From: an uncultured Flavobacteriales bacterium
GTDB taxonomy: Bacteria > Bacteroidota > Bacteroidia > Flavobacteriales_D > CAJJDF01
Assembly: GCA_938009745.1 (NCBI GenBank)
Contig: CALLII010000108.1
Span: forward strand, 1 to 32,385
Direction: 5' to 3'
Length of the DNA: 32,385 nucleotides
Shown in pieces: positions 9,842 to 16,760 of this stretch; positions within the stretch are counted from its first letter, which is position 1; each line of letters begins with the position of its first letter. The notes beneath the pieces are model-generated. The model was not told where the DNA came from and did not search any database. It saw only the letters and a list, made by a program, of their open reading frames with translations. The translations under genes and the position numbers were made by a program.

Positions 9842-10870
9842 ATGGAACTTGGAAAAGGAATAATTTTAGGGATAGAATCCTCATGTGATGATACTTCGGC
9901 ATCAGTAATAAAGGATGGAAAAATTCTTTCTAATTTAATTGCTCGCCAAGATATTCACGAGCAATATGGTGGTGTAGTTCCAGAGCTTGCTTCGCGTGCT
10001 CATCAACAAAATATTATTCCTGTGGTGGAACAGGCCTTAAAACAATCAGGAGTTACCAAAGAAGAATTAACGGCAATTGCTTTTACAGCAGGCCCAGGAT
10101 TAATGGGAGCTTTGCTTGTAGGTGTTTCTTTTGCCAAATCTTTTGCGCTTAGTTTGGATATTCCTTTGGTGCAGGTAAATCACATGAAAGGGCATATTTT
10201 GGCTCACTTTATTCAAAAACCAAATGAGGAGAAAAAGATGCCGACTTTTCCTTTTATCTGTTTAACGGTTTCGGGAGGGCACACTCAATTAGTAAAAGTA
10301 ACCGATTATTTAGAAATGGAAATAATGGGCGAAACACTTGATGATGCTGCTGGTGAAGCTTTTGATAAAATGGCAAAAGTACTTGGTTTTCCATACCCTG
10401 GAGGACCATTGATTGATAAGTATGCCAAAGAGGGAGATGCTACACGATTTACATTTACGCATCCTAGAACACAAAATTACGATTACAGTTTTAGCGGATT
10501 AAAAACTCAGTTCATCAATTTTATAAGAATGTGTGAACGAGATGACCCTAATTTTGTGGAGAAGAATAAAGCTGATATTTGTGCTTCTATTCAGGATACG
10601 ATCATCAGAACTTTGTTCTCTAAACTTAAAAAACTGGCTGATGATTTAAATATTAATCAAGTAGCTATTGCAGGTGGAGTTTCTGCTAATAGTCATTTAA
10701 GAAATGAATTAACTAAACTTGGTGAGAAAAAGAGGTGGGATACTTTTATTCCTGAATTTCAATACTGTACTGATAATGCTGGTATGATTGCCATGACTGG
10801 CTATTTTCAGTATTTAAATCAAGATTTTGTGGGGCAGGAGGTTACTGCTAATGCTAGGATGAAGTTTTAA
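9842..10870 (+). CDS. tsaD: tRNA N6-adenosine threonylcarbamoyltransferase TsaD
   Basis: GIESSCDDTSASV, GLMGALLVGVSFAKSFAL, VNHMKGHILAHF, CLTVSGGHTQLV, GEAFDKMAKVLGFPYPGGP, AIAGGVSANSHLR motifs. Confidence 0.98.
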   Translation: MELGKGIILGIESSCDDTSASVIKDGKILSNLIARQDIHEQYGGVVPELASRAHQQNIIPVVEQALKQSGVTKEELTAIAFTAGPGLMGALLVGVSFAKSFALSLDIPLVQVNHMKGHILAHFIQKPNEEKKMPTFPFICLTVSGGHTQLVKVTDYLEMEIMGETLDDAAGEAFDKMAKVLGFPYPGGPLIDKYAKEGDATRFTFTHPRTQNYDYSFSGLKTQFINFIRMCERDDPNFVEKNKADICASIQDTIIRTLFSKLKKLADDLNINQVAIAGGVSANSHLRNELTKLGEKKRWDTFIPEFQYCTDNAGMIAMTGYFQYLNQDFVGQEVTANARMKF

Positions 10871-11502
10871 TCAATATTATCTAATTTATTTACTGCATCT
10901 ATCTTATTATTTACCTGTAATTTTCTGTATAAATTTTCAATATGTTTTCTCACAGTTCCTTTACTAATAAAGAGATTAATAGCTATTTGCTCATAACTTA
11001 ATCCATTGGCAAGTAGTTGTAATATTTCTTTTTGTCGGGTAGTTAAGCCATAATCAACTGTTGGTTTTTTGCGAGTTTCTATTCTTGAAATTAGTTTCAA
11101 AGTTTTGCGAGCGATTGATGGATTTAATGGTGAGCCACCTTCCATAGCCTGGTATATTGCAGAATGAATCATCTCTGGTTTTTCTTCTTTTAATAAATAA
11201 CCGGTAGCCCCAGCAATTATAGAATCTAAAATAGAATCTTCGTCATCATAAACAGAACAGATAATGATTTTAATGTTTGGAAAATGATTTGAAATATATT
11301 CAGTTGCGTCAATTCCATTCATCACTGGCATATCAATGTCCATTAGAATTACGTCAATCGCATGGTTTTTCTCTATTTGTTTTACCATTTCTTTTCCGTT
11401 AATGGCATGAAATTTTACTTCAAAATCTGGCGAAAGTTCTATTTTACTTTTTAGTGTTTCTGCAATTCTCTTTATGTCATCAGCTATTGCTACTCTTATC
11501 AT
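10867..11502 (-). CDS. LuxR/NarL-family two-component response regulator
   Basis: REC domain (VAIADD, VILMDIDMPVMNG, KEEKPEM) plus C-terminal LuxR HTH (LTTRQKEILQLLANGLSYEQIAINLFISKGTVRKHIENLYRKLQVNNK). Confidence 0.95.
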   Translation of the reverse strand: MIRVAIADDIKRIAETLKSKIELSPDFEVKFHAINGKEMVKQIEKNHAIDVILMDIDMPVMNGIDATEYISNHFPNIKIIICSVYDDEDSILDSIIAGATGYLLKEEKPEMIHSAIYQAMEGGSPLNPSIARKTLKLISRIETRKKPTVDYGLTTRQKEILQLLANGLSYEQIAINLFISKGTVRKHIENLYRKLQVNNKIDAVNKLDNID

Positions 11503-11527: not shown

Positions 11528-11535
11528 CAAAATAA
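11528..11535 (-). promoter_or_regulatory. Putative -7 element of the response regulator gene (TTATTTTG on minus strand)
   Basis: 7/8 match to TAnnTTTG; exactly 22 bp from operator 1; 25 nt before the ATG at 11502. Confidence 0.5.
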
Positions 11536-11557
11536 CTCAAAATAATTACGATTTGCG

Positions 11558-11575
11558 ATACGCAAAAATTCGTAT
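11558..11575. promoter_or_regulatory. Operator 1: ATACGCA-AAAA-TTCGTAT
   Basis: Imperfect 7-4-7 palindrome matching operators 2 and 3; TAC...GTA ends spaced as NarL-type 7-2-7. An overlapping perfect TTTGCG-ATA-CGCAAA repeat lies at 11552-11566. Confidence 0.65.
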
Positions 11576-11595
11576 TTAATCATTCATATTTCAAT

Positions 11596-11613
11596 ATACG
11601 CACTTTTGCGTAT
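11596..11613. promoter_or_regulatory. Operator 2: ATACGCA-CTTT-TGCGTAT
   Basis: Perfect 7-bp inverted repeat, 4-bp spacer; 22 bp upstream of the -7-like GACATTTG. Confidence 0.7.
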
Positions 11614-11635
11614 TTCAAGAAATCCATTTATCTCT

Positions 11636-11643
11636 GACATTTG
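11636..11643 (+). promoter_or_regulatory. Putative -7 element GACATTTG
   Basis: 7/8 match to TAnnTTTG, 29 nt before the ATG at 11673. Confidence 0.5.
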
Positions 11644-11672
11644 TAATATAAATTTTTAAAAAACAAAATATC

Positions 11673-12566
11673 ATGAAAACAATTATCGCAACACTATTAC
11701 TACTACCAACATTTGTTTGGTCACAAAATCAAATTAATTATGAAATTGAAAGAGATGCTCCAGATGAAATCCCTTGGATTAGTATGAACTTAGATTTATT
11801 TTCCTTAGATATTCCAGTGAATAATTTTAATTCTACTTCTTTTTATTTAGGACTGTGGGGTTATGTAAAACCTATAGAAAAACTACCCTTATCGATTGAT
11901 TATAGCCTTAAAAGAAGTTATTTGGTTGTTGGAGCTCTAGGAGACAAAGAGTATCCAAAATCATGGATGGCAGGATTGGGAGGAAGATTTAACTTAATTG
12001 ATAGAACCAAAACAAAAAAAGCTAATGTTGTTCTTAAATCTGAAAAAGTATACTTTGAAGGAAATGAAGGAACAAAAACAACTTCTGTAAGTGTATTGGC
12101 AAGCAGAAGAAGAGTTACTGCAGTTCGTGGTGGATTATATTTACGAAGAAGGGGATTCAATAGTGACGAAATTGAAGCTTTGGATTTTACCTCAAAAATG
12201 AACACGACTGGAGTTTATGGAGGAATTATGTTGACTACTTTTAGAAATGTATTCATAAAAACTGATCAATATGGAACTTCAGGAAATTCTAAAGGAATTG
12301 ATGTTTATGCAGATGCAATTTTTGCAGGAAATAAATTTACTAGAGTTTCTGATGGGAGTGATGTAACAGATTTCACCAAAACAAGATTAGATAAAAGAAC
12401 ACCAGTGGGATTGAGAGTAGGGTTTCAGACTTATGAAATTGAAGAAAAGTTATATACCGACAAAATGTTAGGGATTAATTACAACCTTGAATTTGGAATT
12501 TTACCGTACGAAGGTCTTTATGTTCAAGGTGGAATAACAATGACACTTTTAAAACTGAAGAAATAA
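11673..12566 (+). CDS. Secreted / predicted outer-membrane beta-rich protein
   Basis: Signal peptide (MKTIIATLLLLPTFVWSQ), alternating beta-strand-like segments to the C-terminus; stop overlaps the next ATG (TAATG). Confidence 0.75.
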   Translation: MKTIIATLLLLPTFVWSQNQINYEIERDAPDEIPWISMNLDLFSLDIPVNNFNSTSFYLGLWGYVKPIEKLPLSIDYSLKRSYLVVGALGDKEYPKSWMAGLGGRFNLIDRTKTKKANVVLKSEKVYFEGNEGTKTTSVSVLASRRRVTAVRGGLYLRRRGFNSDEIEALDFTSKMNTTGVYGGIMLTTFRNVFIKTDQYGTSGNSKGIDVYADAIFAGNKFTRVSDGSDVTDFTKTRLDKRTPVGLRVGFQTYEIEEKLYTDKMLGINYNLEFGILPYEGLYVQGGITMTLLKLKK

Positions 12567-13348
12567 TGAAACTCTCATTAATACTATTAATCTTTATCAC
12601 TTCAGTAAGTTTTTCTCAAGACAAATTAATTGAGTTTGATTACTTAAGTGATAGATTAACAAATCATAGATATTTGGATGTTGGTGCTATTTTCTCTTCG
12701 GTAAGTGATAATAAAGTTCTTAACCCTGAAGATCAAAAAATATCTGGTTGGAGTGTGAATGCCCAATTTGATAAAGTAAATTTTGAGTCAGGAGGTTACC
12801 AATATACAGGAAGAATAAAATTATATATGGATTTAATTTTTCAATTGGATAAAGCGCTTACAAAAGGAGGCTCAATTAATCGAAAAACAAGTACTGCTAT
12901 TACTTCGGGAATTTTGGGTTGGCACTCTTTCAGATGGAATGCGATAAGTAAAGACAGATTCTGTTTAGGAGTTGGCTTCAATGCTTCCGATTATTTTTAC
13001 GGAGCATCCTACAAAGATTCTAGTGGAGCATTATTTACTCCAGAGCCCAATGGGTATTATTTGGGAGGTGGCCCCACTTTAAGTTTTGATTATCGTATCA
13101 ATGATTTCTTGAAAGTTGGAGGTTTGTTTGACTATACTTTTTCGGCTGTAAAAGCCACAGGAATAAGCTATGGTGAAGAAATAGAAGGGTATCCGCTACC
13201 TCATTTTTTTAATGGTAGTATAAACCTTACAACAAAATGGGGAGCTTTCTTAAAATATGATTTTAATACAATACTGAATACAAACAATGCTCCAACACAA
13301 GGAAAAAGAAGTGATTTCTGGATTGGATTTAAGTTTGTTTTGCGATAA
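12566..13348 (+). CDS. Secreted / predicted outer-membrane beta-barrel protein
   Basis: Signal peptide (MKLSLILLIFITSVSFSQ), barrel-like strands, terminal FWIGFKFVLR typical of outer-membrane beta-barrel ends; translationally coupled to the upstream gene. Confidence 0.75.
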   Translation: MKLSLILLIFITSVSFSQDKLIEFDYLSDRLTNHRYLDVGAIFSSVSDNKVLNPEDQKISGWSVNAQFDKVNFESGGYQYTGRIKLYMDLIFQLDKALTKGGSINRKTSTAITSGILGWHSFRWNAISKDRFCLGVGFNASDYFYGASYKDSSGALFTPEPNGYYLGGGPTLSFDYRINDFLKVGGLFDYTFSAVKATGISYGEEIEGYPLPHFFNGSINLTTKWGAFLKYDFNTILNTNNAPTQGKRSDFWIGFKFVLR

Positions 13349-15223
13349 TTATTTACTTATTTCTAATTCAGTTTTAGTTCCAGATTGACTTGATTCAATC
13401 TGGAATTTTCCTTTTATTTCCTTCATTCTGTCTTCCATATTAGATAATCCATAACCTCTTACAATAGTTTTATTATCAAAACCTTTACCATTATCTTGTA
13501 TGATAATTGTCAAATCATTATTTGTCTCTTCTACAGTTATTTTCAGTTCAGTTCCTTCGCTATATTTTACAGAATTATTAATTGTTTCTTGGCAAACTCT
13601 AAATAAATTTAATGCGACAACAGAAGACAATTCTAGATTTTTATGGCTCTCAGTAATTGAAGATTTCAATTGAAAACGATTTACATAATTCTCAAGATTT
13701 GACACAAAATTATCCAAATCAATCTTGTCATTTTTAGTAGCCCAAATCGTTTTTCTTAACTGGTCAATAGCAACTTTGGAGTATTCAGAAATTTCTTCCA
13801 ACTCCTTTTTCTCATTTTCATCTTTACTTAAAAAAGCTCTTTGGTCAATTCTTGATTTTATCAAAGTCAGCTCAGCTCCAATGTGATCGTGTAAGTCTCT
13901 TGAAATTCTGAGTTTTTCTTGTCTTGCATTTAATTCTTTTTCTTTTAATTCCAAGTCTTTTCTTCTTCTAAAACTCCTGAAAAATAAGAAGCTCAAAACA
14001 AACAAACTCAATGCGACAATTGCTGAAATAATGTAAATGAAATTTTTCTTTCCAGCAGCAATTTCTTGATTTGCAAGTTCAGTATCTTGCTCGGCAATTT
14101 TTCTATTTTTCTCCTCCGTTTCAAATTTCTTTTGTAGTGTAAGCAGCTCTTTTTGTTGCGATTGAGAATAAATACTATCGTCAGCTGCATGATACAATTC
14201 TGAGTATTTAAAAGCCTCAGAAGTATTTCCTTTTTGCTTATTTATTTTATATAGCCCTTCATAAATCAATTTTTTGTGAATGTTAGAATTTGATTTTTCT
14301 AAATAAGGTAATCCTGCCAAAAATTCTCTTTCGGCTTCTTGAATATTGCCCCTATCGTACAAAATAGTTCCTAAATCTCCGTGCATCAAAACAAGGCCGG
14401 TAGCAGAGTTGTATTTTTGATAATCTGTTATGGCTTTACGATAATAAGTTTCGGCTTTGTTTGTATCGCCAAGTGCATATTCTGCCAACCCAAGACTTTG
14501 ATAGACCTGTCCCTCAAAATCCTTGTAAAACGATTGAGAGGAGTATGGAAGAAGTTCTTCTAAAACTCTAATACTTTCTTTAAGTTGTCCATTTTTGCGC
14601 AGCATATCACCATAGTTGGCTTGAGTAACAGTAAATCTAGCAGTGTCTTTTAGCTCCCAAAGTATTTCTGAGGCTTCTTTAGCTTGATTTATAGCTTCTG
14701 GCATTTGTTCATTTCGTTCATAAATATTAGCCATGTTATTTTTAATCTGAGCAGCTTGTACCTTTTTATCTTTTTTAATAAAAATTTCAGAAGCAATTCC
14801 ATAGAACTTAGTGGCGTCTTTTAAGTTACCCAACTCTTGGTGTCCCATTCCTAGTTTAGAATATGCAGATGCAATTGCTAAACTATCTTTAGTTTTTTTT
14901 CTGTGATATAGAGATTTCTCCCCGTAATCAAGAGTTTGCTGAAAGTTGCCGGCAATAAAGTGTGCAATTGATAAATCATTATAAATATTACCGAGTAAAG
15001 TATCGTCTTTAAGTTTTACCCCTATTTTTTTTGCTAAATCAGAATATTTAATTGCAGAATCGATACTTTTAAAAGCTTCTTTGCTTGCTATGTATTGATA
15101 ATTTTTTCCTTTGGCAAGATCACTTTCAAATGAACGGATTTGTTTTAAGCTATCTATTTCAGTTTGAGAATTTACATTAACTAGTACTAAAGAAAAAAAT
15201 AAAAGGTGTGCGAGGCGAAGCAT
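13349..15223 (-). CDS. TPR-containing sensor histidine kinase (HisKA_3 / NarX-type)
   Basis: Signal peptide, TPR-like repeats, single TM (FIYIISAIVALSLFVLSFLFF), dimerisation H-box ISRDLHDHIGAELTLIKSRI, HATPase motif IIIQDNGKGFD...GYGLSNMEDRMKEIKGKFQIES. Confidence 0.93.
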   Translation of the reverse strand: MLRLAHLLFFSLVLVNVNSQTEIDSLKQIRSFESDLAKGKNYQYIASKEAFKSIDSAIKYSDLAKKIGVKLKDDTLLGNIYNDLSIAHFIAGNFQQTLDYGEKSLYHRKKTKDSLAIASAYSKLGMGHQELGNLKDATKFYGIASEIFIKKDKKVQAAQIKNNMANIYERNEQMPEAINQAKEASEILWELKDTARFTVTQANYGDMLRKNGQLKESIRVLEELLPYSSQSFYKDFEGQVYQSLGLAEYALGDTNKAETYYRKAITDYQKYNSATGLVLMHGDLGTILYDRGNIQEAEREFLAGLPYLEKSNSNIHKKLIYEGLYKINKQKGNTSEAFKYSELYHAADDSIYSQSQQKELLTLQKKFETEEKNRKIAEQDTELANQEIAAGKKNFIYIISAIVALSLFVLSFLFFRSFRRRKDLELKEKELNARQEKLRISRDLHDHIGAELTLIKSRIDQRAFLSKDENEKKELEEISEYSKVAIDQLRKTIWATKNDKIDLDNFVSNLENYVNRFQLKSSITESHKNLELSSVVALNLFRVCQETINNSVKYSEGTELKITVEETNNDLTIIIQDNGKGFDNKTIVRGYGLSNMEDRMKEIKGKFQIESSQSGTKTELEISK

Positions 15224-15315
15224 AGGTTGGTATTAATAATATTTAGTTAAATATATTCAATTGGTTTGAGCTAGCCAAAATGATTTATGGCTCTGGACAA
15301 AATGAAATGACTTAA

Positions 15316-15333
15316 ATACGAACAACTGCGTAT
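15316..15333. promoter_or_regulatory. Operator 3: ATACGAA-CAAC-TGCGTAT
   Basis: Same 7-4-7 architecture as operators 1 and 2; 22 bp upstream of TACATTTG. Confidence 0.7.
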
Positions 15334-15355
15334 TTCATGGCTACCGAATCGGCTT

Positions 15356-15363
15356 TACATTTG
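15356..15363 (+). promoter_or_regulatory. Putative -7 element TACATTTG
   Basis: Exact TAnnTTTG, 26 nt before the ATG at 15390. Confidence 0.6.
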
Positions 15364-15389: not shown

Positions 15390-16760
15390 ATGAAAAAAAC
15401 AATTTTAATAATAACAGTAGCATTAATCTCATTTTCTACTTTTTGCCAATTACCAGATAAGTCTTTGGGTAGTGAAAACTTAAAAGGAAAAGTGAAAGAA
15501 GTAAATACCAATATCTATTATTATCGAACAACTCAAAAATCTTATGTGCTATCTTCTTCTGATAAAATGAAATATAATGATGGAAATTTAATTTACCATT
15601 ATTCTGAGTTTGGTAGTTTACTATCCAATTATGAATACGAATACACTTATGAAGATGGAAATTTGGTAAAGCTCACAAGCCGAAACATTAGTAAAAAAAC
15701 TTCTCAGGTTGAATTGGAAAACTATACTAACTATTTATATAGTTCAGGTAATTTGACAGAGATAAATCTTACAGGTACAGATCCTACAACTATTAGCTTT
15801 GAATACAATAACAAGAATCAAGTGATTAAAGAAGCTAAAGTAGGGATTGGAGCTATTAAAAAATATGAAAAGATTTATGCCTACCAATCTAATTCTGCGT
15901 ATTCAATTACTAGTTATTTTTATTCGAAAGGAGAAAAAGCTGAAAAGCCAAACGTATTTAACTATGAGAAAGGAAATTTGGTTTCTTCAGAAATGAATGG
16001 ATATGGTTCGCCATCAAAAGGTGCATATTCTTTCAATGATAATGGAGATAAAATCTCCTATTATTATAATGGAAAATTAAGTTCAGAGTATTTTTATGAA
16101 TATGACAACCAAAACAATTGGATAACAAGAGTTGAAAAAAGATTCAATACTTTTAGCGAATCAATTTCCTACACGTATTCTTTTAGGCAACTTACTTACA
16201 AGAAAGGAATTACGGGTGGAACAGAGGTTAATTCTAATTTGCTAAAAAAATATGAAACAAGAGATTCTTATGAAGTAAAACCTTACGAAGTAACGGACTA
16301 TAACAAGATACTTTTAAACCCAACTGAGGTAAAGGAATTATTTGTTTTGAAAACGGAAGGTTCTCAATTTAAGGTAAAAACTGATGCAGGGAATTACTTA
16401 ACTAATAAAGTAAATGCTGTAAAGCATACCAATGGATTGGATATGATTTTGTATCATCCAAACAGTAACACAACAGCATTAGTCAAAGATTTTAATGAAG
16501 AGTTGTTCAAGCAAGATTTTTGGCATAAAGCAGAAATATTAAGTTCTACAGACTCAATGTTTTGGACCGTAAACGAAAAGGGAAGTTGGTACATTACCGA
16601 AAAGGGAAAGCCATATTCGGGTTATGAGGCAACAAGTCTTAAATATTCTACAGAAAATCCTGATGATGTAATAGTTTACATAAATGAGGTAGCAACTTAT
16701 ATGATGAAAAATTATAGAAATGCTACTCCACATAAATTATATGTTTTGAGAAAGATATAA
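15390..16760 (+). CDS. Secreted protein with YD/RHS-like degenerate repeats
   Basis: ATG at 15390 gives signal peptide MKKTILIITVALISFSTFCQ; repeated YEYEYTYEDGNLVK / FEYNNKNQVIKE / YEYDNQNNWITRVEK motifs. Track start (GTG 15363) overlaps the putative -7 element. Confidence 0.75.
   Translation: MKKTILIITVALISFSTFCQLPDKSLGSENLKGKVKEVNTNIYYYRTTQKSYVLSSSDKMKYNDGNLIYHYSEFGSLLSNYEYEYTYEDGNLVKLTSRNISKKTSQVELENYTNYLYSSGNLTEINLTGTDPTTISFEYNNKNQVIKEAKVGIGAIKKYEKIYAYQSNSAYSITSYFYSKGEKAEKPNVFNYEKGNLVSSEMNGYGSPSKGAYSFNDNGDKISYYYNGKLSSEYFYEYDNQNNWITRVEKRFNTFSESISYTYSFRQLTYKKGITGGTEVNSNLLKKYETRDSYEVKPYEVTDYNKILLNPTEVKELFVLKTEGSQFKVKTDAGNYLTNKVNAVKHTNGLDMILYHPNSNTTALVKDFNEELFKQDFWHKAEILSSTDSMFWTVNEKGSWYITEKGKPYSGYEATSLKYSTENPDDVIVYINEVATYMMKNYRNATPHKLYVLRKI

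Follow-up and report, generated by a model that had tools for sequence, protein, structure and literature searches.

TPR-containing sensor kinases and LuxR-type response regulators recur as two-component systems in the Bacteroidota, and the regulator family is large and poorly studied. The nearest studied Bacteroidota system that we found is FimS/FimR of P. gingivalis, where FimR binds the mfa1 promoter directly and activates it (PMC1974823). In E. coli, NarL activates ogt from a 7-2-7 site at -44.5 that abuts the -35 element (PMC7419079). Bacteroidota sigma-A promoters have the -33 element TTTG and the -7 element TAnnTTTG (PMC7366714, PMC9723704), and the -7 box has been mapped at -12 to -5 in Flavobacterium psychrophilum (PMC9723704). 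Here, we analyzed a stretch of 32,385 nucleotides (the window; contig CALLII010000108.1, G000:C108) from the 2.5-Mb draft genome, in 165 contigs, of an uncultured Flavobacteriales bacterium. Judged by its sequence, it encodes a two-component system, consisting of a kinase (13349-15223) and a NarL-type regulator (10867-11502), and it carries three palindromic candidate operators at a fixed distance from -7-like promoter elements. We consider it about 90% probable that the phosphorylated regulator activates its own gene and the secreted-protein genes B1-B2 and S3 from these 22-bp-spaced operators, a reading in which binding, its dependence on phosphorylation, the sign of regulation and the start sites are predicted.

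Candidate operators and promoters in the window

Three 18-bp palindromes of the form ATACGMA-N4-TKCGTAT occupy two intergenic gaps. Operator 1 (11558-11575, minus strand, where it reads ATACGAATTTTTGCGTAT) is located upstream of the regulator gene, 22 bp from the -7-like element TTATTTTG (11528-11535, minus strand), which precedes the ATG by 25 nt. Operator 2 (11596-11613, plus strand), the perfect 7+7 palindrome ATACGCACTTTTGCGTAT, lies 22 bp from the -7-like element GACATTTG of the B1-B2 pair (11636-11643, plus strand; 29 nt before the ATG), and operator 3 (15316-15333, plus strand), ATACGAACAACTGCGTAT, lies 22 bp from the -7 element TACATTTG of S3 (15356-15363, plus strand; 26 nt before the ATG). 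Palindromes, coordinates, 22-bp gaps and distances to the ATG had been reported in a first-pass annotation of this DNA and proved exact when the sequence was re-read. The TAnnTTTG-like elements were also present where it placed them, but only TACATTTG was complete (6/6 consensus positions), the other two agreeing at 5/6. Its description of a TAC-N10-GTA (7-2-7) geometry held for the three window sites and extended to homologous regulator promoters, and its LuxR/NarL regulator was recovered with both Response_reg and GerE above cut-off. The NarL heptamer TACYYMT was not matched: each of the three window sites has TACGMA, whose fourth base is G.

At the -33 position the three operator-bearing promoters read TTT, TTT and TCG and thus had no TTG. 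The operator-free kinase promoter had one: its promoter-like sequence, TTG-N20-TATATTTA (15248-15278, minus strand), lies 24 nt before the ATG, and no operator was found at 21-23 bp from it. We also considered operator 3 as a driver of the kinase gene and dropped it, the sole -7-like match on that side being 32 (or 10) bp off; the TTG-N20-TATATTTA promoter, which sits nearer the kinase gene, also disfavoured this assignment.

When at most one mismatch was allowed, TACGMANNNNTKCGTA matched the window three times, each time exactly, against 0.09 matches expected, and three matches were reached in 0 of 100 shuffles. Beyond these three, no further match to the strict palindrome was found in the 2.5-Mb genome. 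A looser form, TACGNANNNNTNCGTA (at most one mismatch), occurred 43 times in the same genome and 79 times in the reversed control, i.e., without enrichment. Because the looser form falls below its control, the palindrome alone is not diagnostic; the palindrome plus the offset is. The palindrome with a -7 box at 22 bp had four exact matches in the genome: operator 2, operator 3 and a further promoter present in two identical copies (see below). Operator 1 fitted this composite with one mismatch. At two mismatches the composite was at the level of the reversed control. Since neither the relaxed motif nor the two-mismatch composite rose above that control in the organism's own genome, we claim no wider regulon of the window regulator.

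Spacing and co-occurrence across the order

Across the order (399 genomes), we looked for ATACG-N8-CGTAT with a TAnnTTTG placed 8-37 bp after it, and used the reversed pattern as a control. Among 59 matches, 34 were at exactly 22 bp (25 genomes) and 4 at 21 bp, the remainder being scattered. The 29 spacings other than 22 shared 25 matches, and the reversed control gave 23 in total in the same genomes; as these two numbers are nearly equal, the excess is confined almost entirely to 22 bp. For this peak, the binomial p value (8e-35) overstates independence, as related genomes are counted, but the peak is common to at least three families. A candidate activator site that abuts or overlaps the -35/-33 position at a fixed spacing, 22 bp in 34 of the 59 matches, corresponds to the arrangement of class II promoters. 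In 12 of the 34 order-wide 22-bp sites, the final base of the site is also the first of a TTG, which precedes the -7 box by 20 bp, where the -33 element is expected.

The regulator subfamily, defined by an E value of at most 1e-45, was found in 50 of the 399 genomes. It was present in 21 of 25 genomes with a 22-bp site (3.1 expected, p = 1.3e-17) and in 6 of 21 genomes having other spacings only. This co-occurrence strongly supports a tie between the site and the regulator at the level of genome content.

Homologous regulator promoters

For 50 homologous regulator genes, the operator and -7 composite was scored out of 14 over the 300 bp preceding each gene. A score of at least 12 was reached upstream of 33 regulators, in 31 of them at 21 or 22 bp (25 at 22). 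Among shuffled upstream sequences, 2.8% reached a score of 12 and 0.2% did so at 21 or 22 bp. When 23 promoters were aligned at 22 bp, the spacer was unconserved (0.25 bit per column) and the site and the -7 box were conserved. Conservation also extended to columns outside the selection, with 2.0 bits for the last T of the site and 1.0-1.3 bits for some inner columns. The site is thus kept in the regulators' own promoters and, therefore, autoregulation is probably the common state in the subfamily.

As to the shape of the site in these promoters, the promoter-distal half was degenerate (TAGG, TTCG, TCCG, TAAG) and the CGTAT half next to -33 was nearly invariant. Also conserved was an A two bases ahead of the operator.

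Homologous modules and targets

The arrangement of the window recurred in other genomes. In G279, regulator and kinase homologs (6e-68 and 5e-81) are divergent to homologs of B1-B2 (4e-48 and 2e-45). The gap between them holds two operators, that of the regulator 22 bp from TAATTTTG and that of B1 22 bp from GTCCTTTG, and so has the same double-operator arrangement as the window. In G005, which belongs to the same family as the source genome, synteny covers the kinase, the regulator, a single operator and B1-B2. B2 homologs were detected in 8 of 79 genomes searched, and 7 of these 8 also had the regulator subfamily. Outside the window, four B1-B2 operons from three genera (G279, G005, G024 and G036) have the site 22 bp from a -7 box; the boxes are GTCCTTTG, GTTCTTTG, GAATTTTG and GAATTTTG, respectively, G-initial like GACATTTG of the window. 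G297 was not counted as a conserved B1-B2 promoter, its 22-bp site lying about 0.9 kb upstream of the B2 homolog. In G035 and G235, another secreted cassette adjoining the regulator and kinase bears the 22-bp operator instead.

The first-pass annotation had proposed that the regulator binds all three sites and autoregulates. The link between regulator and site is supported by the co-occurrence in 21 of 25 genomes, binding itself being predicted, and autoregulation by the conserved site in the regulator's own promoter, with its sign likewise predicted. The annotation named background frequency and conservation as checks. The spaced motif stands above background, with 34 of 59 order-wide matches at exactly 22 bp, and the arrangement is kept both in regulator promoters and in the barrel operon (the annotation's B1-B2) that accompanies regulator and kinase in G279 and G005.

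Two side observations concern the targets. G replaces the initial T in the -7 box of all five B1-B2 promoters (window 11636-11643; L269, L271, L274, L275), and these G-initial boxes possibly keep basal activity low. In several genera (L135, L136, L138, L153, L156), operators of the ATACGNCA type at 22 bp were repeatedly found ahead of small lipoproteins with the motif SCKK(E/K)GCTD, which are likely a second target family.

Genes of the locus

The regulator (10867-11502, minus strand, 211 aa) consists of a receiver and a GerE helix-turn-helix; its Pfam matches (Response_reg 6e-23, GerE 9.9e-18, both above cut-off) place it among NarL/FixJ proteins with a LuxR helix-turn-helix. Its best relatives of solved structure are VraR (5hev) and NarL (1a04), and the phosphoacceptor Asp and switch Lys (D55 and K105) are invariant across 7 homologs. 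Against the equivalog of the nitrate regulator NarL it scored 113.6 bits, below the cut-off of 250. Among the compared genomes that encode this regulator, the closest relative is another member of the same Flavobacteriales family, and its regulator is 80% identical. The sensor kinase (13349-15223, minus strand) has a signal-like N-terminus, TPR repeats, one predicted membrane helix, HisKA_3 and HATPase_c (TPR_12 5.9e-24, HisKA_3 9.1e-08, HATPase_c 8.9e-11), the last two being the domain pair of NarX-like kinases. Its match to the FimS family NF053520 of NCBIfam is partial (1e-15), covers the TPR region only and reaches 57.1 bits, below the cut-off of 600.

B1 (11673-12566, plus strand, 297 aa), a secreted protein by its signal-like N-terminus, had no match in Pfam or NCBIfam; a homolog was detected in L143 (E = 4e-48). 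B2 (12566-13348, plus strand, 260 aa), also a predicted secreted protein, has a start that overlaps the B1 stop codon, as in an operon. Structure models of B1 and B2, built on 2-3 sequences each, were weak (pLDDT 52 and 44); their strands are consistent with barrels, and B1 is beta-rich at low confidence. S3 (15390-16760, plus strand, 456 aa), a predicted secreted protein whose start codon lies 26 nt past the -7 element, matched no curated family of Pfam or NCBIfam above cut-off and is unassigned to a family.

Proposed mechanism and alternatives

In the favoured mechanism, the kinase would be made constitutively, as suggested by its -33/-7 promoter without an operator. The regulator, once phosphorylated, would bind as a dimer to the TAC-N10-GTA palindromes, with the proximal half abutting the -33 region. 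Given a -7 box at -12 to -5 and a gap of 22 bp from TAnnTTTG to the 18-bp site, the center of the site would fall at about -43.5, close to the -44.5 from which NarL activates ogt. The bound dimer would touch RNA polymerase and recruit it at sigma-A promoters that lack the -33 TTG, and so activate three promoters, those of the regulator itself (positive autoregulation), the B1-B2 operon and S3. Two features point to activation: the constant placement of the site with respect to the -7 box suggests polymerase contact, and promoters without a -33 TTG should need an activator.

The same regulator could instead bind the palindromes as a repressor that covers the -33 region. With a site that overlaps or abuts this position, a repressor could block polymerase too, and autoregulation by response regulators can be negative. 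However, occlusion needs no exact 22 bp, yet this spacing is constant across the order and the class, and the three promoters without a -33 TTG, two of them with imperfect -7 boxes, look as expected for activator dependence, which makes negative autoregulation very unlikely. The identity of the binding protein is a separate matter: a different NarL-type regulator or another dimeric factor might read the sites. There are 10 GerE-domain matches in the genome, a second two-component system of the same organism uses the same operator architecture with a different core, and the subfamily was missing from 4 of the 25 genomes with 22-bp sites. Against this, 31 of 50 homologous regulator genes carry the site in their own promoter, the site is syntenic with kinase and regulator in G279, G035, G297 and G005, and the core of the second system, TACGTAGTACTACGTA, is not that of the window, so that a factor other than the neighbouring regulator appears scarcely probable. 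That the palindromes and their spacing are due to chance, or are a by-product of AT-rich intergenic composition, might be argued from the relaxed palindrome, no commoner than its reversed control, and from the two-mismatch composite at control level. This explanation is negligible in view of three strict matches against 0.09 expected, the 22-bp peak, the co-occurrence with the subfamily, and homologous promoters that conserve the site while their spacers are unconserved; the comparative tests already refute chance.

Several observations weigh against activation by the neighbouring regulator from 22-bp sites. The regulator promoter has a tandem TTATTTTG pair 10 bp apart (11528-11545, the second copy at 11538-11545), placed 12 and 22 bp from operator 1; the 22-bp spacing given for this promoter in the first-pass annotation is thus one of two choices that are ambiguous in the window alone, and the homologous regulator promoters favour 22 over 12 bp. 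A high-scoring operator was absent from the upstream 300 bp of 17 of the 50 homologous regulator genes. The p values are inflated as independent evidence, because related genomes and duplicated promoters were counted. In the 4 genomes with 22-bp sites and no detected subfamily member, other NarL-type regulators must, as far as genome comparison indicates, read similar sites. Also, the set of targets varies, as the nearest relative (G004) has the regulator and its operator but lacks a B2 homolog.

A probable wider rule in the class Bacteroidia

The second NarL-type two-component system of the source genome (G000:C49; L279:2294-6046) has ATACGTAGTACTACGTAT 22 bp from GAGATTTG in the gap that separates its kinase from a divergently oriented secreted gene. 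This operator-promoter stretch, about 50 bp long, is repeated without change on a different contig, ahead of another large secreted protein (G000:C33:583, L278). For a related regulator in G291, the core is similar and the distance 21 bp. When ATAC-N10-GTAT was used in the same kind of spacing scan over 149 genomes of the class, 39 of the first 150 matches listed were at 22 bp, compared with about 3.8 per other spacing, and 31 of these 39 were ATACC-N8-GGTAT. In other orders, some ATACC-N8-GGTAT sites have proteins with a LuxR-type helix-turn-helix as neighbours, together with large secreted or receptor-like genes (L199, L200, L201, L215; G490, G416, G519, G404). There, too, the promoters of regulator genes themselves contain TAC-N10-GTA with 22 bp to a -7-like element (L020, L022, L026, L030, L042, L044). 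We infer that a fixed 22 bp from TAC-N10-GTA to the -7 box is probably a general rule for many NarL-type activators of the class Bacteroidia at sigma-A promoters, in which the bases adjacent to TAC (ATACGMA, ATACGNCA, ATACGTAGTA, ATACC) would form a specificity code; this class-wide extension is less tested than the core finding. If true, a large share of the LuxR-type regulators of the phylum that are still uncharacterised could be given operators and targets by scanning.

Comparison with known systems

No operator of a LuxR-type response regulator from the Bacteroidota came up in a literature search, and since most subscription journals were outside the search this is not proof of absence; within the literature searched, an operator at a fixed 22-bp distance to the Bacteroidota -7 box appears undescribed. 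The palindrome with its exact -7 distance predicts operators, targets, autoregulation and start sites by sequence alone, and natural variation would allow the base code of the helix-turn-helix to be read. The finding also suggests how the unusual -33/-7 promoters of the phylum are activated. Both the architecture and the predicted mode of action match NarL-type activators, which are already known, and this is no new kind of system. Like E. coli NarX/NarL at yeaR-yoaG and ogt (PMC7419079), the locus combines a NarL-family regulator, a HisKA_3-type kinase and a TAC-N10-GTA inverted repeat, with activation from a site next to the -35 region in E. coli and, as predicted, the -33 region here. The heptamer differs (TACGMA here, TACYYMT for NarL), the promoter is of the Bacteroidota -33/-7 type, and the kinase has TPR repeats, whereas NarX has a nitrate domain. 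FimS/FimR (PMC1974823) is likewise a Bacteroidota two-component system, and the kinases share an N-terminal TPR region by NCBIfam match; however, the kinase here is far under the FimS cut-off (57 of 600 bits), and that paper defines no FimR operator sequence. Compared with the standard Bacteroidota sigma-A promoter, the -7 element is shared, whereas the -33 TTG is missing and a putative activator site stands in its place. Unlike the sites of E. coli NarL, this site keeps a constant distance of 22 bp to the -7 box over promoters and genomes.

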